Shown piece after piece: positions 3,727 through 30,325 of a DNA stretch of 50,024 nt. The number at the start of each line of letters is the position of its first letter. Position 1 is the first letter of the stretch. The DNA is from Vampirovibrio sp. (lineage in GTDB: Bacteria; Cyanobacteriota; Vampirovibrionia; Vampirovibrionales; Vampirovibrionaceae): contig JAHQWC010000055.1 of NCBI GenBank assembly GCA_019634025.1, positions 1-50,024 of the forward strand, in the 5' to 3' direction. Both the position numbers and the translations under genes were made by a program. The notes under the pieces are model-generated. The model had not been told where the DNA came from. It saw only the letters and a program-made list of their open reading frames with translations, and ran no database searches.

Positions 3727-4590
3727 TTAGGCCGTAGCACCTGCTGGCGTCTCTACCCGAATAAACTCGGGAATAATTTTTTCTTTCAAAACACCGGCGC
3801 CTTGGCCCATCCACAGCATCAGCTTGATGGCCTTTTTAATCTCATCATCCATGTTCAAGGTCATGTCATTCACATACATACCCACAAACTTATCGGCTTT
3901 TTTCCGGTCCAGATCCCGGGCAAACTGCATGGCGTAATCTAAGGCTTCTTCGCGGTGGGCTAAGCCGTATTCAACACTCCGTTTCAGGACACGGCCAATT
4001 TTCTGAATCATCTCCGGCCCCAAATCCTTGCGGATGGCGTTCCCACCCAGGGGCAGGGTCAAATTAGTGGTCTCAAACCACCATTCACCTAGGTCTACCA
4101 CTTTAAACAGATTCTCTTCAGCGTAGGTGAGCTGGCCTTCGTGGATAATCAAACCGGCTTCATATTCGCCAGCATGGACCTTTTCCATAATCTCATCAAA
4201 AGGCACCACTTCGGTTTTGACGTTAGGCTCCCAAATTTTCAGGGCCAGATAGGCAGAGGTCATCTCACCCGGCACCGCCACGGTTACCTCAGCTATATCG
4301 TCTTTGGTCATGGGTTTTTTGGAAATCAGCACCGGGCCATATTTATCGCCAATACTAGAGCCGCAGGTCAAAATGGCGTATTTGTCTTTCAGGTGCGCAT
4401 AGGCGTGAAAGGAGATGGCCGTCAGTTCATAGGTACCTTTCAACGCCTCCTGGTTCAGGGTTTCAATATCAGTGAGGTGATGACTAAACGTCAGACCCTC
4501 GGTATCCACCTTGTCGTTGGCCAAGGCATAAAACATAAAAGCATCATCAGAATCCGGGCTGTGCGCCACACGAATAACAGGGGTCGTCAT
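3727..4590 (-). CDS. mqnD: 1,4-dihydroxy-6-naphthoate synthase MqnD
   Basis: Last specific head-group step of the futalosine route: it converts the cyclic MqnC product to 1,4-dihydroxy-6-naphthoate. It has the MqnA/MqnD fold, related to periplasmic-binding proteins but cytosolic, with no signal peptide. The N-terminal HSPDSDDAFMFYAL (10-23) and IIHEGQLTY (148-156) are characteristic; His150 matches the family's catalytic histidine. The length of 287 residues is normal. It is separated from mqnA and mqnE (16-18 kb). It is alone on the minus strand with pth 104 nt upstream. MqnA is the main alternative, but a separate MqnA exists at 16127 and the IHEG motif favours MqnD. Confidence 0.88.
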   Translation of the reverse strand: MTTPVIRVAHSPDSDDAFMFYALANDKVDTEGLTFSHHLTDIETLNQEALKGTYELTAISFHAYAHLKDKYAILTCGSSIGDKYGPVLISKKPMTKDDIAEVTVAVPGEMTSAYLALKIWEPNVKTEVVPFDEIMEKVHAGEYEAGLIIHEGQLTYAEENLFKVVDLGEWWFETTNLTLPLGGNAIRKDLGPEMIQKIGRVLKRSVEYGLAHREEALDYAMQFARDLDRKKADKFVGMYVNDMTLNMDDEIKKAIKLMLWMGQGAGVLKEKIIPEFIRVETPAGATA

Positions 4591-16185: not shown

Positions 16186-17005
16186 TAGACAAGGTATCCA
16201 ATTGTTGTATCACTTGAGAAAATAGGGTGAGTGAGCTTTGATGCGCTTGGGTCCAGCCAAAATCCAGAGAGCGCGTGAAATAGCGTCGAAGTGTCGCCGG
16301 TGATATTTTACACCGATCCTCCGCCAGCCGCACCGCTTCTTCTAGGTGAGTACCGTCTGCAAAGAAAGCTTCGCGACTCTCACACAAGCGCTGGGTAACC
16401 TGTTGCAGGGTTTCAGCATTTGTCTGTGCCCAATCTTTTTGAGCCACCCACACCGCAAACACAAAAGGCAAACCGGTTTGCCGGAACCACAGGTCCGCTA
16501 AATCATAACAGTAATACCCTTCCTCCGGCAAAACATCCGCCATCATCAAAGCATGATCCCCAATAATTAAAGCATTTCCGGAAGATTCCAGTGCTGCCGC
16601 ATAATCGCCGGCAACATAGGATTTAAACCAAGGCCGAAAATCCACTTTCACAGACTGCTGTAGAAGGTGGGCCAGCAAAGCAATAGAGGTTTCTGAATCA
16701 TCCGGCACCATAATGGCAGGTAAGTCCAACAGGGTATGATTCATGGGATTTTTAGAGACAAACAACACACTTTCCACCGCCCCAGGAGAACTCACCGACA
16801 ACCCCGGCACCAAGAGGAGTTGGCGTTGGTGCCGCAAATAATGGGCGCTGGAGACGGGCGAGATTTCCAATTTACCCGCCGCCACAAACTGATTCAACGA
16901 TGCCGGAGATGCATACACTAAAGATTCCAGTTCGTTCGGCTGAAACAAATGATAAATGGGCAGGGTATTAATAAAAGAAATGGCGCCAATAGAAACCGGT
17001 CTCAC
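16127..17005 (-). CDS. mqnA: Chorismate dehydratase MqnA
   Basis: First enzyme of the futalosine menaquinone pathway: dehydrates chorismate to 3-[(1-carboxyvinyl)oxy]benzoate. The N-terminus VSIGAISFINTLPIYH (4-19) and ISPVSSAHYLRH (49-60) are typical of MqnA, as is the region SSPGAVESVLFVSK (77-90) and the C-terminal GWTQAHQSSL. The length of 292 residues is normal and it is cytosolic. It lies after mqnE on the same strand, separated by a palindromic repeat, and its 3' end overlaps rsgA by 59 bases. Confidence 0.9.
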   Translation of the reverse strand: MRPVSIGAISFINTLPIYHLFQPNELESLVYASPASLNQFVAAGKLEISPVSSAHYLRHQRQLLLVPGLSVSSPGAVESVLFVSKNPMNHTLLDLPAIMVPDDSETSIALLAHLLQQSVKVDFRPWFKSYVAGDYAAALESSGNALIIGDHALMMADVLPEEGYYCYDLADLWFRQTGLPFVFAVWVAQKDWAQTNAETLQQVTQRLCESREAFFADGTHLEEAVRLAEDRCKISPATLRRYFTRSLDFGWTQAHQSSLTLFSQVIQQLDTLSNGSERDSYTFSRTSSAIPF

Positions 17006-17169: not shown

Positions 17170-18342
17170 TCAATCAATCTTATCTGGGCGTGGGTATACG
17201 TTTAAAATCTGGTACGTCGTATCCCGTTCTACTGGGGTTTTCCCAGCCTTCCAAATCATGGTCAGCAGATCCTGCTTAGTCATATGCTCGGCGCTTTCGG
17301 TGCCGGCCGCATGGGCAATTTTTTCTTCTACCACCGTTCCGTCCACATCATCCACCCCAAAGTTCAGCCCGACTTGGGACAGTTTCTCACCAATGTGAAT
17401 CCAGAATGCTTTGAGGTGAGGCACGTTATCTAAAATTAATCGGCTCACGGCAAAGTTCTTCAGATTCTCCACACCAGTCTGGGCATGAGCCGGATCAATT
17501 TTATTGCCTTCGTAATAGCAGTTCAGGGGAATAAAGCACATAAACCCACCGGTTAAATCCTGCTGATCCCGAAGGGCCAAGGCATGATCAATCCGCTCCT
17601 GATAAGTTTCTCCCAGGCCAGCAAGTAAGGTGGCATTGCTTTTCAGACCCAATTTGTGGGCTTTTCCGTGGATATCCAGCCACTGTTCTCCGGTAATTTT
17701 GCTGGGGCAAACCTCTTCACGCACTCTTGGCGCAAACACCTCAGCCCCACCACCGGGCAGAGATTGCAGACCGGCATCTTTGAGGGTCAAAATGGTTTCT
17801 TCCACCGTAATGCCCGCCAGTTTTGCAAAATAATCCAGCTCCACTGCCGTCAGCCCTTTAATGTGGACATGGGGAAAGTGCTTTTTCAGGGCTTTAAACA
17901 GATCCACGTAATACTCCAAACCTTGCTCAGGATACAGGCCCGACACAATGTGGAATTCCGACAAGGTGTCCTTGGCAGAATACTGATTCACGTGATCCAC
18001 CACGTCATCCACCGACATGGCATAGGCAAATGGGGATTTCTCTCCTTTTTTGTAGGAGCAAAACTTGCAGTTCAGTTCGCAAATATTGGTGGGGTTAATG
18101 TGGAAGTTATGCACCCAATACACATAATCCCGGTTTTCCACAGGCGTCCTTAAAATTCTGGCGGTATCCGCCAAAATACCCACAGACAATAGATCATCAC
18201 ACTCATACACCTCAATAGCCTCATCCCGGCTAATCCGTTGACCTTCCAACACCTTGGCGTAAATGTGCTTTAACGGGTTTGAGGGGCGCGTAATATACTG
18301 CTCTTTTAACCCATCCAACCGATCTACCACTGTGGCTGCCAT
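17170..18342 (-). CDS. mqnE: Aminofutalosine synthase MqnE (radical SAM)
   Basis: Joins the MqnA product to SAM-derived adenosine to form aminofutalosine. The CxxxCxxC cluster motif is CELNCKFC (88-95). MqnE-type features: HIVSGLYPEQGLEYY, LPGGGAEVF, KLGLKSNATLLAGLGET and QDLTGGFMCFIPL; MqnC proteins usually read TTATM in place of SNAT. The start at 18342 is chosen for AGGAGG seven bases upstream; an ATG nine codons earlier has none. The product is about 390 residues and cytosolic. MqnC is the main alternative. MqnB and MqnC are not in this window. Confidence 0.88.
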   Translation of the reverse strand: MAATVVDRLDGLKEQYITRPSNPLKHIYAKVLEGQRISRDEAIEVYECDDLLSVGILADTARILRTPVENRDYVYWVHNFHINPTNICELNCKFCSYKKGEKSPFAYAMSVDDVVDHVNQYSAKDTLSEFHIVSGLYPEQGLEYYVDLFKALKKHFPHVHIKGLTAVELDYFAKLAGITVEETILTLKDAGLQSLPGGGAEVFAPRVREEVCPSKITGEQWLDIHGKAHKLGLKSNATLLAGLGETYQERIDHALALRDQQDLTGGFMCFIPLNCYYEGNKIDPAHAQTGVENLKNFAVSRLILDNVPHLKAFWIHIGEKLSQVGLNFGVDDVDGTVVEEKIAHAAGTESAEHMTKQDLLTMIWKAGKTPVERDTTYQILNVYPRPDKID

Positions 18343-18471
18343 CGCCGTGCCTCCTACATGTATTATCATTCTCCAGCTATCTGCTTATACTGTCGTACAA
18401 ACAGACCCCGCCAGCAAGAAGGGCCTTTTTATTAGGGGGATATGCACATTTAGATCTCAAAAGTTTTGCCC

Positions 18472-21497: not shown

Positions 21498-21511
21498 GAC
21501 GCAGGTGCGTC
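21498..21511 (-). terminator. Weak hairpin at the end of the respiratory operon
   Basis: GACGCA-GG-TGCGTC (6-bp stem) overlaps the last stop codon of the operon and is followed on the minus strand by ATTTCTTAAT. The stem is short and the T tract is interrupted, so this is tentative. Confidence 0.35.
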
Positions 21512-21885
21512 TATTTATTTTTTTGAACCAAATATATCGTACCCAGCAAGGCGGTTCCCAACAACAGTACCGTCAAAGTGGGACCTACTGATATAGCCGA
21601 AGGATTAGCTATATAGATGAGAGCCACTGCTGCAACAATATAAATACCGATAAATCGAGGCACTAAAAACGTCACGGCCAAAGCACCCAAAAAAGCCAAG
21701 ATAATGGCAAGTCCAAATATAGGTAGCTCTACCACACCGCTTAATACTAACGGCAATGACACCATAACCACAAACAAAGACCCAAAGAGGATAACCCCCC
21801 AAAATTCATGGAAAAACCACTTGGCTGTCGCCTCAGGGTCGCGGACGCCTTCTTCTTCACTTTCGTGGTGGGCCATCATCATCAT
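21511..21885 (-). CDS. Small multi-pass membrane protein of the respiratory operon
   Basis: A 124-residue protein, last gene of the operon. After a His/Glu-rich start (MMMMAHHESEEEG) it has four hydrophobic segments, about residues 27-50, 52-70, 72-92 and 97-118. I know no family. The start could be any of four consecutive ATGs; AAGGAG lies 13 bases before the first. Its place beside two other small membrane proteins and the cytochrome b genes suggests an accessory or assembly subunit of the complex (inference). No haem or metal motif is visible beyond the N-terminal His pair. Confidence 0.7.
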   Translation of the reverse strand: MMMMAHHESEEEGVRDPEATAKWFFHEFWGVILFGSLFVVMVSLPLVLSGVVELPIFGLAIILAFLGALAVTFLVPRFIGIYIVAAVALIYIANPSAISVGPTLTVLLLGTALLGTIYLVQKNK

Positions 21886-21916: not shown

Positions 21917-22045
21917 TTACGCCTCAGCTACCATACCAAACGAGGCAATGGTCAGTAACAGTAAAAAATAAATCAGAAAAAACCACAGGTTTTTAAAAAA
22001 CATCTCAACTTCATATTGCTTCTTAACCGGCTTTTGACGAACCAT
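21917..22045 (-). CDS. 42-residue single-pass membrane protein of the respiratory operon
   Basis: A short gene with an excellent AAGGAG ribosome-binding site seven bases before its ATG. The product starts basic (MVRQKPVKKQYEVEM) and continues into one membrane helix (FFKNLWFFLIYFLLLLTIAS) with a short end. It sits 19 bases after the MvhD-type gene and 31 bases before the 124-residue protein, all on one strand. Cytochrome complexes often carry one-helix subunits of this size, such as the Pet small subunits of b6f, but I see no match in sequence and infer the role from place and shape only. Confidence 0.75.
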   Translation of the reverse strand: MVRQKPVKKQYEVEMFFKNLWFFLIYFLLLLTIASFGMVAEA

Positions 22046-22064: not shown

Positions 22065-22514
22065 TTAGCTAGATGCTTCTACAGCTTGACTTGCGGAACC
22101 AGTGGCGGCATCCGACGAATCAATGGTTTTTAAGTATTCCTGAAAATCGCCCACCATTTCCTGCAGCTTCTCGTATTCCAGCACAGATAGCCAATAGGCT
22201 TGAATACGTCGCTGATCGGTACTGGGTTTTATTTTCGGCATCCGGGTGCCCAGCAGGCGTTCCCGCAAAAACTTGTTGCCTTCCCGGTAATGGCAGTCTC
22301 CAATCCGGCAGCCACAGGCAAAGGTCCCGTCTGCACCATTTTTCAAGGCCGTTTCCAGCATAATGGGCTGAATCATCCCACTACAAGGCACCTTGATAAT
22401 CTGAACATTGGGATCATCTTTCAAGCAACCTTTTTCATCCAACTGATCCTTCAGCTCGACGCTCCGTTCACAGACCAGTCCGATGATTTTCTCTTTGTTT
22501 TCTGTTGAAGTCAT
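22065..22514 (-). CDS. MvhD/FlpD-type hydrogenase iron-sulfur subunit homologue
   Basis: A 149-residue protein of the methyl-viologen hydrogenase delta-subunit family, which passes electrons between an iron-sulfur partner and heterodisulfide-reductase-like flavoproteins. The signature is present: VPCSGMI (42-48), LKNGADG (57-63), FACGCRIGDCHY (65-76) and GNKFLRERL (79-87). Cys15, Cys44, Cys67, Cys69 and Cys74 could hold a [2Fe-2S] centre. No hydrogenase or HdrA gene is in the window. It follows the cytochrome b-ferredoxin fusion by 35 bases, so its likely partner is that protein's Fe-S domain. AAGGAA precedes the ATG. Confidence 0.85.
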   Translation of the reverse strand: MTSTENKEKIIGLVCERSVELKDQLDEKGCLKDDPNVQIIKVPCSGMIQPIMLETALKNGADGTFACGCRIGDCHYREGNKFLRERLLGTRMPKIKPSTDQRRIQAYWLSVLEYEKLQEMVGDFQEYLKTIDSSDAATGSASQAVEASS

Positions 22515-22549
22515 ATGCTTGTCTTCCTTAAATGCGTCTTGGCTGAAGT

Positions 22550-23674
22550 TTATGAGGACGTCGTCGCCAGCGCGACTTTAATTTCTTCCAATACATCCGC
22601 TGATTCTCGACGGGGAATTTCAATGGCCTTAAAAGCACAGGCGCCTACACATAAACCGCAGTTAGAACACCGTCCGGCATCCACCACGGCTAAACGTTTA
22701 AAGCGAGTGTCATCATCCCGGTCCACCATCTCAATAGCTTCATAAGGGCAGTCATGGTAGCACAGGGAACATCCGGTACAGTTCTCAAACTTCACATGGG
22801 CAAACTGACCGCGCAAGGTCTTTTTATGCAGATAGGGTAGCCACAGCAGGGCGACAATCACACCCAAGGTCAACGCCCATACCCAACCGGCATCCCATCC
22901 TTTTACCGCTAGCCATTGGGGCCACATATACAACAGATCAAAGGAAATGGATTGAGAGAAAGCAGCCCTGTTCGGATCAGCGCCCAACTCTACCGGGAAG
23001 AACCCGCAAATCATAAATAAACCGCCCAGCAACAGCAGGTATAACGGCGCCGGAGCATCGGTGACCGGGCGGGTAATCCGCAGGTAATGCATCCATAAAA
23101 AGAACATCAACAACCCAGGAATCGCCAAGTGCAAAAACAGCAACCGGGTCAGGGTAAAGTCCACCATCTTGCCGCCGGGCATAAAAAACTCGGCCAATCC
23201 GGCCCCCACTAAGGGCAAGGCTCCCAGCAGGTTCACCGTCATGCTGGTCAGGTTCACCGCTTCCTGGTCCCAAATCAACAGGTAGCCGGTTAAACCCACC
23301 AGAAAGGTGATGGTTAACAAAATCACGCCGGTGAGCCACGGAATAATCCGGTATTCTCGATACCGATCCGTAAACCACACGCGCAACATGTGCAGCAACA
23401 CAAAAATCATCATGCCATCCGCTGCATAACGGTGGATACTACGAAATGCGTTTCCAAACGGAATCTGCTCGGTAATATATTTTACCGACGGATACGCCTT
23501 TGTCATGGTGGGCACGTAGTAGGCAAACAGGAGCAAGCCGGAAATAAACAGCGTCCAGATGAAAAAGTTCGGCAAGGCGCCATGGTAATAGAACGGATTG
23601 TATTTTTGAGAAAAGACCTTGTTCAAGCCTTTCTCAATCCACAGGGTAAAGGTTTGTAGCCGTTCCGTATACAT
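22550..23674 (-). CDS. Cytochrome b (N-terminal type) fused to two [4Fe-4S] clusters
   Basis: 374 residues. Residues 1-285 are a cytochrome b N-domain with extra membrane helices; both haem pairs are present, His81/His182 and His95/His196, each pair in equivalent helices and spaced 14 residues apart. Residues 290-355 are a bacterial ferredoxin with CxxCxxCxxxCP (Cys299, 302, 305, 309) and CxxCxxCxxxCA (Cys336, 339, 342, 346). There is no subunit-IV part and no PEWY motif. The clusters should lie on the cytoplasmic side, able to reach the MvhD-type protein encoded next. Proposed role: transmembrane electron transfer between quinone or haem and low-potential Fe-S carriers (inference). Confidence 0.9.
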   Translation of the reverse strand: MYTERLQTFTLWIEKGLNKVFSQKYNPFYYHGALPNFFIWTLFISGLLLFAYYVPTMTKAYPSVKYITEQIPFGNAFRSIHRYAADGMMIFVLLHMLRVWFTDRYREYRIIPWLTGVILLTITFLVGLTGYLLIWDQEAVNLTSMTVNLLGALPLVGAGLAEFFMPGGKMVDFTLTRLLFLHLAIPGLLMFFLWMHYLRITRPVTDAPAPLYLLLLGGLFMICGFFPVELGADPNRAAFSQSISFDLLYMWPQWLAVKGWDAGWVWALTLGVIVALLWLPYLHKKTLRGQFAHVKFENCTGCSLCYHDCPYEAIEMVDRDDDTRFKRLAVVDAGRCSNCGLCVGACAFKAIEIPRRESADVLEEIKVALATTSS

Positions 23675-23706
23675 ATCTTACCGTTCCTCGTTTATAACTA
23701 TTGGGC

Positions 23707-24321
23707 TTACGATTTTTTCTGCCGGTCTGGCGCACGAGTCGCCAGCTCTTCTTCATGCCCCAGACTGATATAGGCAATGGCTGTCACCACAAAGATCAGA
23801 CCAATTCCCAAAAAGTAAGGCTTCAGCCCGGTAGAGATCATTTGCCGAACCGCTTCGGCATTATTCATCTGCTCAAGGGTCAGGTTAATGTTCCCTTCAC
23901 CACAGATCATCACCAGCATACCAAATAAGCCGGAGGCGAACACCAGGATTAACAGGACAACTTCTTTCATGGCAGATCCTTTTGCGGCAGATTCTAAGCG
24001 GGAAACCTCAACCTTAGTGGTCTTCCCCTCAACATCGCCATTCAGTTTCCGGTAAAGCGCCTCAAAGGGACCAAACTCCCGCTGAATCTTCCCTTTAATC
24101 TTCTCTTTAACATACCCGTCAAACATCAACACCAAAAACGTCACTGCTAAAAAGGCAATGGCACCTAACAAAGCCAACCCGTTCATATCTGTTGGCGTCA
24201 CGGTAAACGTTTTAAACGTCTGAAAGAAAAGCGACAGACCATAGGTAGAGAGTCCAAAGACCACCCACCATAAAAGGCTGTTCATGCCAGAGAAAGATTT
24301 TTTGTCCATCATACTCTTCAT
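23707..24321 (-). CDS. Membrane protein of the respiratory operon, unknown family
   Basis: A 204-residue protein with four hydrophobic helices, about residues 15-33, 47-67, 122-143 and 168-188, and a charged cytoplasm-like stretch between helices 2 and 3 (GYVKEKIKGKIQREFGPFEA). No haem or metal motif is seen. Its ATG overlaps the cytochrome b stop by four bases (ATGA), and the cytochrome b-ferredoxin gene follows after 32 bases, so it is tightly coupled to both cytochromes b. It may bridge them (inference from place only). I recognise no family. Confidence 0.75.
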   Translation of the reverse strand: MKSMMDKKSFSGMNSLLWWVVFGLSTYGLSLFFQTFKTFTVTPTDMNGLALLGAIAFLAVTFLVLMFDGYVKEKIKGKIQREFGPFEALYRKLNGDVEGKTTKVEVSRLESAAKGSAMKEVVLLILVFASGLFGMLVMICGEGNINLTLEQMNNAEAVRQMISTGLKPYFLGIGLIFVVTAIAYISLGHEEELATRAPDRQKKS

Positions 24322-25778
24322 GCGCCAGCCTCCGCCATTTCCTGACGGGTTTTGCGCCGAGAGTCAACCATAATTAAGATTTCAGCAAGCACTACCTGAC
24401 CAATAGAGAAGGCCGCCCACAGCATACTCCAATATAGGTTCGCCGGGTTCCAACCTTCTGGCAGAGCACCACCACTAAAGCTATTAAACCAAACCATAAG
24501 CCAGTCTGCTGCAAAGACATGCCAGAAAAAGAGGTACCAAACCCCAAACAAGGCACAACCATACACCCAGGCACGTAGTGGAAGCTGCTGCTGGTATTGG
24601 CCCCAATGCCAGAACTGACCAATCCCCATAAAGAGGATCATATGGCCAAACCAAAACGGCGGATCTGTCTCAATATTGGATTTATTCATCACAATCATGG
24701 CCGAGAACACCAAAAACTCAACGGCGGCGGCAATCCCCACCATGGTAAAAATAGGCCGTTTCCACATGTTCCGCTCTTCGCCCCAATCCAGAAAAGCCAA
24801 ACCAATGGTAATTACCGGAATCCCTACGGTCCAAATTGTAGCCCAATAGGGATCCATATACCGAAGCATCTGATACAACGCCAGGAAGTACCAATCCGAC
24901 AGAATCGGCAACGGTGTCACCTCAGGGTTTGCCCGAGACCCTGTCTCCGCCGGAATCATAATGGCGGTAATCAATACCATGCCCAACATAATCAAAATGG
25001 CAGGCATCCGCAGGTTCAACCGCTTAAACCGGTTTTTGTAGAAGTACAATTCCGTCACTACCAGCAGGATCAGCGAAATCGTAAAGTGCAACGAATAAAA
25101 CCGGGTCATCGTCGCCTGCCCAATAGAGCTGCCCCCCAGTAAAATCTGAGAGGTGGTCATCCCCTGGTGGGTATAATCGCCAATCATTTTTGTTACCGCG
25201 CCAATGGCGTTGGGTAAAAACCAGGTGTTTTCCACCACAATACCTTCCCACGGCCAGTACCAGTATTTCGGGGTAATATCCAGGTACATCGGGAAGGTGG
25301 CAAAAATCTTGGTGGCCCAAAATGCCCGCTGGTTCCAGATCAACAGATAGCCCGTTAACCCGGAGTACATCGCTGCAAGTAGCAGAATAATAGACAATAC
25401 AAAGGTAAACTCACCTTTGTTCTTGTATTCGGCGTTAAAGTACATCCGATACACCCTTAACGTGGCGGCAATAATCATGCCGTCCCCCGCATATTTATGC
25501 AACCCTCTGAGGATCATTCCCAGTTTGTTTTCTGAAAAGCTGATAATGGAGTCAAAAGCTTGAGAGGTAGTCGGCAAATAAATGGCTACCAGAATCACAC
25601 CGCTGATAATGACCACCATCCAATACAGATAGTAAATACCCCCTAATTGGTACCAGGGAGACTCTTTTTGCAGGTCTGCCTTGGTCTCGTCAAAAAAATC
25701 AATCTTCGCCAACCGGTCCTGGACAAATTTCCAGCCGTCGGCAGGCGCTTGCTTTAATTGAGAAATGACACCTGCCAT
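24318..25778 (-). CDS. Cytochrome b of a bc-type complex, lacking one haem ligand pair
   Basis: 486 residues, covering both the four-helix b domain and a fused subunit-IV-like part, with an extra C-terminal membrane region. In helix B His94 is present (LRGLHKYAGDG), but 14 residues later there is Arg108 instead of His. In helix D His231 is present (FYSLHFTIS), but position 245 is Tyr. So only one bis-His haem (the bL-type pair) can form in the usual way. The Qo motif reads SDWY (PILSDWYFL) in place of PEWY. The codons are unambiguous on both helices. It directly abuts the Rieske gene (no gap) and is followed by the 204-residue membrane protein. Confidence 0.93.
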   Translation of the reverse strand: MAGVISQLKQAPADGWKFVQDRLAKIDFFDETKADLQKESPWYQLGGIYYLYWMVVIISGVILVAIYLPTTSQAFDSIISFSENKLGMILRGLHKYAGDGMIIAATLRVYRMYFNAEYKNKGEFTFVLSIILLLAAMYSGLTGYLLIWNQRAFWATKIFATFPMYLDITPKYWYWPWEGIVVENTWFLPNAIGAVTKMIGDYTHQGMTTSQILLGGSSIGQATMTRFYSLHFTISLILLVVTELYFYKNRFKRLNLRMPAILIMLGMVLITAIMIPAETGSRANPEVTPLPILSDWYFLALYQMLRYMDPYWATIWTVGIPVITIGLAFLDWGEERNMWKRPIFTMVGIAAAVEFLVFSAMIVMNKSNIETDPPFWFGHMILFMGIGQFWHWGQYQQQLPLRAWVYGCALFGVWYLFFWHVFAADWLMVWFNSFSGGALPEGWNPANLYWSMLWAAFSIGQVVLAEILIMVDSRRKTRQEMAEAGA

Positions 25779-26444
25779 CTAGGAAATCCCTCCTGCCTCA
25801 ACTTTGGTCACCACCAGCTTATTTGCAGCGGTGTCCACATCCATTTCAAAAATCCGAGGTGGCCGTGGCGCAGGGCCACTAACAACAGCGCCACGAATGT
25901 CACCGAGATCCGTTCCGGTTGCGCCTTCCTGCAGAGGATCAAACACACTGAAGTGGCACGGACATGCAAACAGCGGGTTTTTGGCTAACGGATAGTTATA
26001 ATCCACCGCTTTCGCCGGATCCGTTAAAAAGTTGAACACACAGCCCATGTGTGGACAAATGCGACTCACAGCATGAAAGACTTTTTCGCCACCCTCATCT
26101 GGCAGCCGAACCACGAACCCTGGAATATTAATAGCTTGGAAGCCTTTAAACGTATACTCTCTGCTTTTCTGGCCAAAGGTAAACGTTTGGTAAGACCACG
26201 GTGTCGGAAAATCATCCAGCGAGAACACAATGTCCCGTTCCCGAACCGGTAAATCCGGATTACTAAAGAGGCCACCGCCCCCTTTCCATTCTAAAGGACT
26301 GCCTTTAAAGCTAAATTTGGTCAACGTCTCGCCAATAGGCCCGGCACTGGGCCGCAGATAGCGTACCAGCGGAGAGATAAACAGGCCAATGGCGCCCAAC
26401 AACGGCAGGCCAAACAATATTTTCAAAAACGCTCGGCGATCCAT
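25779..26444 (-). CDS. Rieske [2Fe-2S] protein
   Basis: A 221-residue Rieske protein with an N-terminal membrane anchor and a DRRAFLK start suggesting Tat export. Cluster ligands are in CPHMGC (Cys130, His132, Cys135) and CPCHFS (Cys161, Cys163, His164), both complete, including the disulfide cysteines. It takes one electron from quinol at the Qo site and passes it to cytochrome c, here probably the dihaem lipoprotein encoded just before it. Spacing is three bases from that gene and none to cytochrome b. A long linker (35-70) and insert before the cluster resemble bc complexes of Cyanobacteria relatives. Confidence 0.94.
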   Translation of the reverse strand: MDRRAFLKILFGLPLLGAIGLFISPLVRYLRPSAGPIGETLTKFSFKGSPLEWKGGGGLFSNPDLPVRERDIVFSLDDFPTPWSYQTFTFGQKSREYTFKGFQAINIPGFVVRLPDEGGEKVFHAVSRICPHMGCVFNFLTDPAKAVDYNYPLAKNPLFACPCHFSVFDPLQEGATGTDLGDIRGAVVSGPAPRPPRIFEMDVDTAANKLVVTKVEAGGIS

Positions 26445-26447
26445 GGC

Positions 26448-27551
26448 TTAGTGTCCTCCCTCGCTGACTTCTTCAGAAGGTGCAGCTGGTTTTGGAGCCG
26501 CACCAGCGTTCCGAGGTGTTACCGGCGGAATCAAAGGATGTACGCCTTCAGGCCTGGGCAATGCCACTCCGGCAGGGATTTCATCATCCGGCGACAAGTC
26601 GTTGTTGTAGGATAACGACCGTACATGCCGAATCAACATCCAGATCATTTTATCGTCATATTTAAAGTTTTTCTGCTTATCTTCATTTCCCAGCCATGCC
26701 GGCATGCCAGAAGGGTAAATCCCTTCACTCACATATTTGAATAACTGGGCATCCGTCCGGTTATACATCCGGGCATAATGATCCTTCAGGTTCGCTGGCG
26801 GCGGCTTAAAGATACCTCCGTGAACTTTAATAGACTCTGCGCCTTCATGTTTAGGCATACCCGTATGCAACGGGCCATCCGCAAAACCACGTTTTCCATG
26901 GCACACGGCACAGTTCTGACCAAACACTGCCGCCACATCTACAGGTTCACCAGCCAAATTGTCATACTTCATATCCCCGTTACCGGCTAAGTGACGTGCA
27001 TAAAAAGCTGCTTCCCACCGCTGGTCTCGGGTCAATTTATCCCGTAAAGGACCAGCAGGGTGAACCTGCGCCAACAGATCCAAACGGCCATTCTTTTCAG
27101 AAACAACCATCTCTTCCGGTTTTTTACCCGTGGTCAAAAACAGATACACATCAATCGGCGTGGTATAGGCCAATACTTTTTGCTTATCTTGCTGCTGCCA
27201 GTAGCCAGCAGCGTGACAGGAAAGACAGTTATTCTCATAGACACTCTTCCCATTCGTCAAAGACGGTGGGGCAGACGGAAAGGCAAAATCTTCTTCAGAA
27301 ATCCGCTCATCAAACACCGGCTCGGACAGAAGACTCGTATTGTCTTTAATTTCTTCTTTAGCACAACCCGTCACTGTTAGTGCAACAGCAGCAGATAACA
27401 ACCCTAATGAAAAAACGCGTCTGGCCGACTTCAAAACAGACAAAACGCCGGAAAAACGAGAGAATCCCTTTTCCTCAATATTTGCGTTTGTTTTGTTGTT
27501 GGCGTCCATATCCATAGAAATCATTGTCCCTGTTGAATCATTAGTAACCAT
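26448..27551 (-). CDS. Dihaem cytochrome c lipoprotein
   Basis: A 367-residue precursor. After a cytoplasmic stretch, residues 44-62 form a lipoprotein signal with lipobox LTVTGC (Cys63). Two haem sites follow: CLSCH (109-113) and CAVCH (214-218), each in a cytochrome c domain, and a Pro/Ala-rich tail. It probably carries electrons from the Rieske centre to the cbb3 oxidase and takes the place of CcoP. The ORF start overlaps the preceding small gene by 11 bases; ATGs at codons 10 and 13 are alternatives, the last with AGGGA upstream. Confidence 0.9.
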   Translation of the reverse strand: MVTNDSTGTMISMDMDANNKTNANIEEKGFSRFSGVLSVLKSARRVFSLGLLSAAVALTVTGCAKEEIKDNTSLLSEPVFDERISEEDFAFPSAPPSLTNGKSVYENNCLSCHAAGYWQQQDKQKVLAYTTPIDVYLFLTTGKKPEEMVVSEKNGRLDLLAQVHPAGPLRDKLTRDQRWEAAFYARHLAGNGDMKYDNLAGEPVDVAAVFGQNCAVCHGKRGFADGPLHTGMPKHEGAESIKVHGGIFKPPPANLKDHYARMYNRTDAQLFKYVSEGIYPSGMPAWLGNEDKQKNFKYDDKMIWMLIRHVRSLSYNNDLSPDDEIPAGVALPRPEGVHPLIPPVTPRNAGAAPKPAAPSEEVSEGGH

Positions 27552-27756: not shown

Positions 27757-27927
27757 CTAGTCTTCATCCTTTAGCATTGCATACTTTGCCTGTTCCAAGT
27801 TCTCCAACCGGCCCGTGCCGGACGCCCAAAACAGAGCGATTACCGCCATCAGAAAAAACAATCCGCAGATAAAGAAGGCGGCAATGTAGCCGGGACCAAT
27901 TCCACCAGAAAGACAACTCGGGCACAT
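27757..27927 (-). CDS. ccoS: CcoS-like cbb3 oxidase assembly peptide
   Basis: 56 residues. A membrane helix (about 12-36: PGYIAAFFICGLFFLMAVIA) runs into LFWASGTGRLENLE, close to the FWA-x-x-x-GQFDDLE signature of CcoS, and ends in an acidic LKDED. CcoS is needed for haem and copper insertion into the cbb3 oxidase. The N-terminal CPSC pair is unusual and could bind copper (inference). The ATG shares one base with the ccoO stop (TAATG), and the next gene begins three bases after its stop, so it is translationally coupled within the operon. Confidence 0.7.
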   Translation of the reverse strand: MCPSCLSGGIGPGYIAAFFICGLFFLMAVIALFWASGTGRLENLEQAKYAMLKDED

Positions 27928-28895
27928 TAGTGAGGTCGTCCTCCGCCGTATTGATACGCGCCATGATCGGCGCCCAGGTTTTCAATATATTTGTAGTTAT
28001 CATCCAGCTTATTGGGATCATCCAATTGGCTAAATTCCGTCACCTCTACCTCACCGGCAGCAGCGCTACCGTCGTTTGGCAAGGTTTTCAAGAAAGCGAC
28101 CAGATACAACATATCTTCATCGCTCAACGATTTTTTCCACCGGGGCATGCGAGTCCCAGCCACACCTTCAGCAACCCGCCAATACCACATATCGTTGGAA
28201 TAGGCGGCATAGTAAGGCCGGGTAAAATTGGCCGGTTTTTTCGCCATGGTAGCGCTTACAGGACCATTACCTTTGCCCTGCACCCCGTGGCACACAGCAC
28301 AATTTTGCATATAGATCCCGCGACCCGCATTGGCGGCGGCAGAAGAATCCACATCCACCAATTCACTAATCACGTGATATTTATCGCGATATTCTTGCGG
28401 CCCGTTAATCCAGTGCGGTTGTTTCCGTTTTGCACCCAGAGTTTGCAGATAGGCAATCAAGTCACTCATATCATCATGACTCAGATAACTAAAGGAGGGC
28501 ATAATGGATCCCGGCTTCACGGCGCGAGGGTTCACATGGTGCGCCCAATGCCAAGAATCGGGGTACTTACCACCGATGTTAGACAAATCCGGACCCGTCC
28601 GCTCCGTGCCTAAAACGTGAGGCGTTTCATGTACATAATCCCCAGCAGCCACCATCTCGCCGGTTTCACGATCTTGATACCGGACAAACTGGGTGTGGCA
28701 GTAAAAGCAACCTTCCCGCCGATAAACATTCCGCCCCCGCAACACGGCAGGATCTTCCTGCTCGTAGTTGGTAGCCACCTCACTGGCTTCGGGCTGAAAC
28801 TTCAGGTAGGGCAAGTACACCGTCACCACAATAATGGTTACAAATACCAGGGCGATATAGGCGCCGGCCACTAAATAATTAAGTCGTTTTTCCAT
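27927..28895 (-). CDS. ccoO: cbb3 oxidase subunit II (CcoO) fused to a cytochrome c domain
   Basis: 322 residues: one N-terminal membrane helix (7-28), the CcoO/FixO monohaem domain with EGCFYCHTQFVR (Cys63, Cys66, His67) and typical YPDSWHWAHHVNPR and PGSIMPSF, then a second cytochrome c domain with CAVCH (199-203) and a RMPRW Met ligand region near residue 251. Normal CcoO is about 200-240 residues with one haem, so the extra domain is a fusion that supplies a haem usually found in CcoP. Follows ccoN by 32 bases and shares one base with ccoS. Confidence 0.93.
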   Translation of the reverse strand: MEKRLNYLVAGAYIALVFVTIIVVTVYLPYLKFQPEASEVATNYEQEDPAVLRGRNVYRREGCFYCHTQFVRYQDRETGEMVAAGDYVHETPHVLGTERTGPDLSNIGGKYPDSWHWAHHVNPRAVKPGSIMPSFSYLSHDDMSDLIAYLQTLGAKRKQPHWINGPQEYRDKYHVISELVDVDSSAAANAGRGIYMQNCAVCHGVQGKGNGPVSATMAKKPANFTRPYYAAYSNDMWYWRVAEGVAGTRMPRWKKSLSDEDMLYLVAFLKTLPNDGSAAAGEVEVTEFSQLDDPNKLDDNYKYIENLGADHGAYQYGGGRPH

Positions 28896-28927: not shown

Positions 28928-30325
28928 CTATACGTAAGCCATCCCGGTGGGGGAAGCTGGGATCGGTTCATAATTTTTGGAGAATACCGTTTTGTAGATG
29001 TTGAACATAAACAAGATTTGACCCAGGACAATCATCACACCGGATAAAAACCGAACAAACATGTAAGGCTCTAATTCCATGCCCCACTGATCCACCGGCA
29101 AGGCAAAGTGCCATCCGGCAGCCTGTACCAGCCCGGCAATGGTCAAGGCCAGCATCATGATGATCCATCCCAAGAAACTCAGCCAGAAGTGCCACACCGC
29201 CAGCTGCTTACTAAAGACCTTGCGTCCGGTGACCTTGGGAATAATGTAGTAAACCGCCGCAAAAACAATAAAGGAGAACGTCGCCAACAACGCCATGTGC
29301 GCGTGCCCCACCACCCAGTTACTGAAGTGAATATACCAGTTGATTCCCCGCGTTGCCTGAAACGGACCCTGAATACAGGTGAGCAAATACCCCAGCCCTG
29401 AGGCCATGACAAAGCGAAGCGGCACATGATCGGCCGCCAAAGACCATTTACCCTTCATGGTCATAAAAAAGTTGGTCAATACGGTAAACACCGGCACCAA
29501 CAAAAACACACTAGAAATAACCGCGATGGCTTTCAACCATTCCGGCACGGGTGATTGCAAAATATGGTGCGTTCCGGTCGGCGCATAAAACATTCCAATG
29601 GTCCAAAATCCAATCATAGACAAGGTATGACTGTACAACGGATTTCCAGTAAATCGAGGGATCAGGTAGTACAGAATCCCAACGCCACCCACGGTAAACC
29701 ACATACCCAAAATATTGTGACCATAAAACCAACCGGCAATGGCATCATTCAACCCGTCAAACTGCACAAACGCCCGGTTCCCAACCACATACACAATAGG
29801 AAACCAAAATAACGCGCCCAAAATGTACCACAGGGTCACGTACCATTTTTTCTCAGGGCCGGACAACACGGTTTTATAAACGTTAATCCCAGTCAAAATT
29901 AACCCGGCTAACACCATCCAGTCAAAAATGCCTTGTAGCTCTGCGTACTCTCTGGCTTCGGTGTAACCATTCATAATAGAGAGCGCGCCCAGACCCACCA
30001 GCAGGTTCCACACCACCATGGTCACATTGCCTAAGCGTTCAGACCAAAGCCGCTTACTACCGGACAGCACTGTTCCCAAAAAGAACATACAGCCCACATA
30101 ACCCATGGACAGCCAACCAATAAGAACCCCATGAGTATGGACCGGCCGTAACCGGCCAAAGGATAACTGCGGCACTTCATGGATCAAATCCGGCCAGGTC
30201 ATTAACGCGCCGGCGGTTAGACCAATCGTGGTTCCAAACACCAACCAGAAAATCGCAGAAATTAAAAAGTTCCGACTCGCACTAAATGGCTCGTCACTAA
30301 AAACAGCGTTCAAAAATCTATTCAT
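28928..30325 (-). CDS. ccoN: cbb3-type cytochrome c oxidase subunit I (CcoN)
   Basis: The 465-residue catalytic subunit of a C-family haem-copper oxidase, an oxygen reductase of high affinity. Twelve or so membrane helices. Low-spin haem ligands His65 (PVHTHGV) and His343; CuB ligands His203 (FYGHNILG) and His253/His254 (GTHHILQSPVPEW); high-spin haem ligand His341 in GHAHMAL. First gene of the respiratory operon, which continues with ccoO and the bc-type genes. No clear ribosome-binding site is seen before the ATG, and I could not fix the promoter in the 275 bases upstream. Confidence 0.96.
   Translation of the reverse strand: MNRFLNAVFSDEPFSASRNFLISAIFWLVFGTTIGLTAGALMTWPDLIHEVPQLSFGRLRPVHTHGVLIGWLSMGYVGCMFFLGTVLSGSKRLWSERLGNVTMVVWNLLVGLGALSIMNGYTEAREYAELQGIFDWMVLAGLILTGINVYKTVLSGPEKKWYVTLWYILGALFWFPIVYVVGNRAFVQFDGLNDAIAGWFYGHNILGMWFTVGGVGILYYLIPRFTGNPLYSHTLSMIGFWTIGMFYAPTGTHHILQSPVPEWLKAIAVISSVFLLVPVFTVLTNFFMTMKGKWSLAADHVPLRFVMASGLGYLLTCIQGPFQATRGINWYIHFSNWVVGHAHMALLATFSFIVFAAVYYIIPKVTGRKVFSKQLAVWHFWLSFLGWIIMMLALTIAGLVQAAGWHFALPVDQWGMELEPYMFVRFLSGVMIVLGQILFMFNIYKTVFSKNYEPIPASPTGMAYV

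Follow-up and report, generated by a model that had tools for sequence, protein, structure and literature searches.

A conserved operon of non-photosynthetic Cyanobacteriota with two specialised cytochromes b: a possible heterodimeric complex III with an iron-sulphur port

As a rule, complex III is built as a symmetric homodimer, and its Q cycle is closed. In the standard topology of its cytochrome b, haem bL is located near the positive side of the membrane and haem bH near the cytoplasm, and a bL-bL bridge occurs in bc1 dimers. The present work concerns a respiratory operon in a 50,024-nucleotide stretch of Vampirovibrio sp. DNA (contig JAHQWC010000055.1, positions 1 to 50,024; below, "the window" means this whole stretch). 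The operon encodes two different cytochromes b, designated cytb1 and cytb2, the second of which is fused to a ferredoxin (Fd) domain and followed by an FlpD/MvhD-type protein. With the bc1 and b6f complexes it has in common the Rieske protein, the cytochrome b fold, a Qo-type motif and a dihaem cytochrome c, but it differs from them in possessing a complementary pair of cytochromes b, where cytb1 is devoid of haem bH and cytb2 is devoid of helices G and H and bears a cytoplasmic iron-sulphur (Fe-S) domain. All the open reading frames listed by an earlier, sequence-only reading between positions 22065 and 25778 of the window were recovered at the same places, all on the minus strand.

The closest precedent is found in Kuenenia stuttgartiensis, where the products of Kuste4569-4574 and Kustd1480-1485 are proposed to form NAD(P)-linked Rieske/cytochrome b complexes performing quinol bifurcation to a soluble acceptor (PMC12954380). 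These complexes and the window operon share menaquinone, a Rieske protein with Ser plus Tyr or Phe, and a cytochrome b that connects to Fe-S clusters in the cytoplasm. However, the Kuenenia complexes contain a b6-like cytochrome b with subunit IV, modelled as a homodimer, as well as haem cN, multihaem cytochromes c and an FAD-bearing NAD(P) oxidoreductase subunit, whereas in the window operon the bH-less cytb1 stands beside a different cytochrome b, together with an HdrA2-type arm and a cbb3 oxidase, and no flavin subunit is encoded. The arm corresponds to two consecutive C-terminal segments of HdrA2 (NCBIfam NF040770), residues 571-642 for the ferredoxin part and 645-774 for FlpD, and is thus common to this operon and the HdrA2 and HdrABC-MvhD systems; here, the flavin body is absent (12 genomes) and the arm is attached to a membrane haem protein. 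In the solved Hdr-Mvh complex, electrons leaving MvhD pass the C-terminal ferredoxin before they reach FAD (PMC9012536). The "deranged" bc1 of acidophilic Acetobacteraceae has lost its bH ligands, as has cytb1, but its Rieske ligands are lost too, and the accessible part of that report mentions no additional cytochrome b that bears an Fe-S arm (PMC10715153). A "Complex III/IV fusion" has been reported for Melainabacteria and Obscuribacter, where petB and petC lie close to a C-family oxidase (PMC6349859). Judging from the accessible part of that source, this is probably the same operon in the same organisms, annotated there as PetB and PetC only, and that part mentions neither haem loss nor the ferredoxin fusion nor FlpD. 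Neither a protein joining cytochrome b, ferredoxin and FlpD nor a pair of cytochromes b with complementary haems turned up in the open-access literature, and both the pair and the HdrA2-type arm appear to be undescribed in the open literature searched.

The cytb1 gene (24318..25778, minus strand; Pfam Cytochrome_B and Cytochrom_B_C) encodes a full-length cytochrome b. The protein has H94 and H231 as the p-side ligands of bL, and the positions of the bH ligands are occupied by R108 and Y245. The same pattern was found in all 47 sequences compared: neither the two bL histidines nor the Qo motif SDWY varies, and both bH ligands are missing, being replaced by Arg or Lys and by Tyr (Arg in two sequences). 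The cytb2-Fd gene (22550..23674, minus strand; Pfam Cytochrome_B, 2e-30, and Fer4 dicluster) encodes a cytochrome b with six transmembrane (TM) segments joined to a 2x[4Fe-4S] ferredoxin. Its AlphaFold2 (AF2) model, from which the helices were assigned, comprises helices A-F without G and H, and a Foldseek comparison matched it to complex III cytochrome b; no PF00032 match was obtained for the protein. It contains H81, H95, H182 and H196 together with two complete CxxCxxC...C motifs, and the four haem-ligand histidines, as well as the eight cysteines of the two [4Fe-4S] clusters, are conserved in 81/81 sequences. Only as a pair do the two proteins supply the bL and bH ligands and the Qo motif: cytb1 has SDWY but no bH, and cytb2 has the ligands of both haems and a DWxY-like motif. 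The ferredoxin domain follows helix F of cytb2, so it would lie on the cytoplasmic side, beside bH. The cysteine that binds haem ci in b6 is not kept in the alignment. Adjacent to its position, the 16 Vampirovibrionia cytb2 sequences compared all have a histidine (H31). In the Kuenenia models an extra haem b is placed on a cytochrome b histidine at the dimer interface, which may or may not correspond in position to H31.

The third protein, FlpD/MvhD-type and carrying a [2Fe-2S] cluster (22065..22514, minus strand; PF02662 FlpD, 1e-24, 87 bits), has MvhD of 5odc as its closest solved chain (6e-19). Of the canonical CxxC (NWC) motif only CERS is left, the second cysteine being replaced, and exactly four invariant cysteines, kept in 51/51 sequences, remain for the cluster. 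The observation made in the sequence-only reading, which had placed an altered cytochrome b beside a second one with four ligands and two [4Fe-4S] clusters, followed by an MvhD-type protein, is confirmed; its idea of a redesigned complex III is supported.

The covalent link between a cytochrome b and [4Fe-4S] clusters leading to an MvhD-type protein, also put forward earlier, is supported as well. Cytochrome b, ferredoxin and FlpD form one polypeptide in Proteobacteria, Myxococcota and Spirochaetota, which indicates that FlpD belongs with the ferredoxin domain. The AF2 model of a natural proteobacterial fusion (pLDDT 82.7, pTM 0.79) resembles complex III cytochrome b in its membrane part over about 285 residues. 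The loci of such fusions usually adjoin a haem-copper oxidase with SCO, and in several fully read loci with CtaB, and lack a Rieske gene. A cytb2 paralogue of Gallionella (L124:3984-5909, plus strand) carries [2Fe-2S]-FAD-NAD reductase domains in place of the arm and lies in an operon for a haem-copper oxidase that includes SCO and CtaB but no Rieske gene. Together with the proteobacterial fusion, this indicates that cytochromes b of this class acquired cytoplasmic redox modules on more than one occasion. In cytb2-Fd/FlpD, the haem protein sits where HdrA2 has its flavin domain. The Gallionella locus also encodes a conserved 170-residue membrane-anchored protein of no known family (L124:5909-6418, plus strand), which is fused to the C-terminus of cytochrome b-Fd-FlpD in loci of Myxococcota and Spirochaetota (L103, L105, L130), and a divergent COX1-like protein of 468 residues with no NCBIfam match (L124:6428-7831, plus strand).

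The genome containing the window (2.48 Mb, 161 contigs) belongs to the order Vampirovibrionales of the Vampirovibrionia ("Melainabacteria"). The nearest named homologues come from Vampirovibrio and other Vampirovibrionales, followed by Obscuribacterales and Caenarcaniphilales, i.e., from non-photosynthetic Cyanobacteriota. Full-length cytb2-Fd is present in 25 of 39 related genomes, counting the window's own. The loci of the 24 relatives were read with 11-20 kb of context each, and all 24 contain both cytochromes b and the gene order ccoN, ccoOP, cytochrome c, Rieske, cytb1, small TM gene(s), cytb2-Fd and flpD; in a few of them one gene was unlabelled because a weak score or an overlap with another reading frame masked it. 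The complete order was also found in 39 of 80 named loci of the GTDB collection, and a further dozen or so agree with it but are cut short by the end of the locus or contig. Since the complete loci include Acidobacteriota (L102) and Deinococcota (L101), the order spans three phyla. Among 244 genomes sampled evenly across the phylum, the five with a match to cytb1 are exactly the five with a match to cytb2-Fd. The sequence-only reading had named in advance a gene order not shared by relatives as an outcome that would speak against it, and the order proved to be shared. The arrangement is not a matter of chance because every cytb1 homologue examined shows the same ligand replacements and every relative keeps the gene order.

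The phylogenetic tree placed cytb1 in a single clade (100/99) across the three phyla, with the canonical cytochromes b in a separate group, and cytb2 clustered with the proteobacterial fusions and not with cytb1. This topology rules out a recent duplication of one cytochrome b and indicates that the cytb1/cytb2 pair is an old cassette. As the branches are long, the tree does not settle how cytb1 relates to canonical cytochrome b. The window's genome also possesses a second, canonical Rieske/cytochrome b operon (L159:2997-4700, contig C88) with the IKPEWY motif and four haem ligands. No match to a third cytochrome b was obtained in several relatives, including one with a single-contig, closed genome, and in these organisms the cytb1/cytb2 complex is probably the only complex III.

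The path on the p-side to cbb3, which the sequence-only reading had outlined, is completely encoded in the operon, all on the minus strand. The conserved order opens with CcoN, the catalytic subunit of a cbb3-type (C-family) oxygen reductase (28928..30325; Pfam COX1, 1e-78), which is followed by a CcoO-CcoP fusion with two haem c motifs (27927..28895; Pfam FixO, 5.5e-33, and Cytochrom_C). A dihaem cytochrome c lipoprotein (26448..27551; Pfam Cytochrome_CBB3 and Cytochrom_C; two CxxCH motifs) is likely the equivalent of cytochrome c1/f, and next to it lies the gene of the Rieske iron-sulphur protein (25779..26444; Pfam Rieske, 1.6e-5; motif CPCHFSVF). The operon contains every part of a III/IV supercomplex.

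The reading preferred here, with a probability of roughly one half, is that the genes of the operon make up one respiratory quinol oxidase chain, whose complex III pairs two specialised cytochromes b in a heterodimer with an Fe-S port. Menaquinol would be oxidised at the Qo site of cytb1, and the first electron would pass through Rieske and the dihaem cytochrome c to cbb3. The second electron would enter the bL of cytb1; since there is no bH in this protein, the simplest way on would be across the dimer to the bL and then the bH of cytb2. This bH would face the two [4Fe-4S] clusters and FlpD on the cytoplasmic side, and the ferredoxin-FlpD arm would serve as an electron port to a soluble partner. 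We infer the heterodimer, the bL-bL transfer and the port function from the sequences; a low-potential chain shared by the two cytochromes b seems to be the best explanation of the pair. Several points weigh against the heterodimer with a port. The DWxY-like motif of cytb2 (D246 in 80/81 sequences) may give this protein a quinol site of its own, cytb1 and cytb2 may form two separate homodimers, and a functional Qi site may or may not be present. The ferredoxin part has low confidence in the AF2 model of the window's cytb2-Fd, the genes of the operon encode no soluble partner, and the occurrence of the proteobacterial fusion without Rieske means that the module does not require Rieske bifurcation.

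Candidate partners of the arm were sought in related genomes. MvhD is the usual docking site of [NiFe] hydrogenase, the classical FlpD donor. No [NiFe] hydrogenase was found in any of the seven Vampirovibrionales among the 12 genomes searched (formate dehydrogenase was outside that search), so this partner was rejected for the Vampirovibrionales. The NADH module of complex I was rejected as well, NuoF being absent from 12/12 genomes although NuoD is present. The complex I operon of the window's own genome (L161:7340-15393, contig C31) is without NuoE, NuoF and NuoG and resembles the ferredoxin-dependent complex I. An NDH-2-like gene was detected in 8 of the 12 genomes, including the window's, and is lacking in a closed relative. 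A flavin-bifurcating HdrA elsewhere in the genome, suggested earlier as a partner, was not supported: in the 12 genomes there were no matches to its body, the thioredoxin-reductase-like FAD domain, beyond short ones to a generic FAD fold, and only the ferredoxin-FlpD arm was seen. The link to flavin-based bifurcation made by the sequence-only reading accordingly finds no support.

A rough energy balance bears on the direction of electron flow through the arm. MqnA/MqnD-type genes, which occur in 12/12 genomes, point to menaquinone as the quinone; the window itself encodes three futalosine-pathway proteins (3814-4575, 16208-16993 and 17170-18369, minus strand), two of the MqnA/MqnD type and one MqnC-like radical SAM protein. 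The two Cys and two His ligands of Rieske are kept in 44/44 sequences, and the protein has the potential-raising Ser, with Phe at the Tyr position in the window and Ser plus Tyr in most relatives. For the Kuenenia Rieske proteins with the Ser/Tyr and Ser/Phe pairs, which function with menaquinone, potentials of +303 and +335 mV were measured, and for haem bP a potential as low as -475 mV was derived, from which the reduction of NAD(P) was argued to be possible (PMC12954380). If the values were the same here, the move of the electron towards the negative side would cost about 160 mV and leave about -300 mV. On an energised membrane, the transfer from quinol to NAD(P) would then be energetically borderline and that to ferredoxin unfavourable, so the latter is not endorsed, whereas electron input from a cytoplasmic donor would be downhill. 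On this rough balance, the direction leans only slightly towards input.

Accordingly, the use of the arm as an entry, where a cytoplasmic donor would reduce FlpD, the ferredoxin domain and then cytb2, delivering electrons to haem bH or the menaquinone pool, is tentatively put first, at somewhat less than even odds. It is comparable with the ferredoxin-plastoquinone reductase activity that has been proposed for b6f, and it would suit genomes with a complex I devoid of NuoF, and the closed relative that also lacks the NDH-2-like gene; the Gallionella paralogue with its FNR module points the same way. But such an entry leaves the loss of bH in cytb1 unexplained, the classical hydrogenase donor is missing, and most of the genomes, including the window's, do have an NDH-2-like gene. 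The loss of bH counts in favour of the output of the low-potential quinol electron, i.e., a quinone-based bifurcation that would send one electron from menaquinol to Rieske and cbb3 and the other through cytb2, [4Fe-4S] and FlpD to a low-potential carrier, most plausibly NAD(P)+, because one route by which this electron could be dumped into menaquinone is removed. Output was the main idea of the sequence-only reading and has its analogue in what was proposed for Kuenenia. The high-potential type of the Rieske pair and the low potential of the Kuenenia bP haem also favour output. Nevertheless, it is considered rather unlikely in view of the energetics, of the bH that cytb2 retains and through which menaquinone may be reduced, and of the operon encoding no NAD(P)- or flavin-binding subunit, nor an NAD(P) oxidoreductase subunit with FAD, besides the missing HdrA body. 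The stronger version, in which bifurcation at Qo within a heterodimeric complex III would drive the aerobic reduction of a soluble low-potential carrier, by way of haems alone and then an Fe-S arm derived from HdrA2, is doubtful; if true, it would represent an HdrA-like machine with the bifurcating flavin replaced by a quinone and cytochrome b.

It is also conceivable, with slightly lower odds than output, that electrons leave or enter by the arm in neither direction, and that its role is structural or regulatory or the complex runs a plain Q cycle. In its specific form, an ordinary complex III built as a heterodimer would pass electrons from the bL of cytb1 to the bL and bH of cytb2 and on to menaquinone at a Qi site of cytb2, as an asymmetric Q cycle with the arm as an auxiliary. 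The presence of all III/IV supercomplex parts in the operon, and of no other cytochrome b set in several relatives, agrees with this scheme, but the invariance of the cysteines in both the Fe-S arm and FlpD indicates a strong constraint on the supposed auxiliary, and the scheme is judged improbable. Far less probable is the decay of a bc complex, for which there is the documented loss of bH and Rieske ligands in the acidophilic Acetobacteraceae (PMC10715153). Decay was rejected since the ligands of Rieske and of bL do not vary, nor does the Qo motif, and cytb2 is complete, and the complementarity of the haem loss in cytb1 and the intact cytb2 argues against it too.

A conserved asymmetric complex III would provide a direct test of whether bL-bL transfer is essential. 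With one subunit that has lost its n-side haem and another that has gained an Fe-S port, it would also bear on the relation between quinone and flavin bifurcation and on whether complex III exchanges electrons with soluble carriers in aerobic chains. The hosts include the closest non-photosynthetic relatives of Cyanobacteria, a group in which it is disputed how aerobic respiration arose.

The remaining genes of the operon, all on the minus strand, encode small membrane proteins. The four-helix protein that the sequence-only reading saw between the two cytochromes b is present in the window (23707..24321; four TM segments from hydropathy, neither a Pfam nor an NCBIfam match), but as a single protein it is not general, since it is a fusion here and corresponds to two separate small membrane proteins in many relatives. 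The last gene of the operon in this family encodes a membrane protein of 124 residues (21511..21885) that has no Pfam match and has homologues next to flpD in several relatives. Directly 3' of flpD there is a gene for a 42-residue protein with a single TM segment (21917..22045), which was missing from the earlier list; homologues with the motif FFxLLLxIASFGxIAE directly follow flpD in 15/15 relatives checked, and this protein belongs to the operon.

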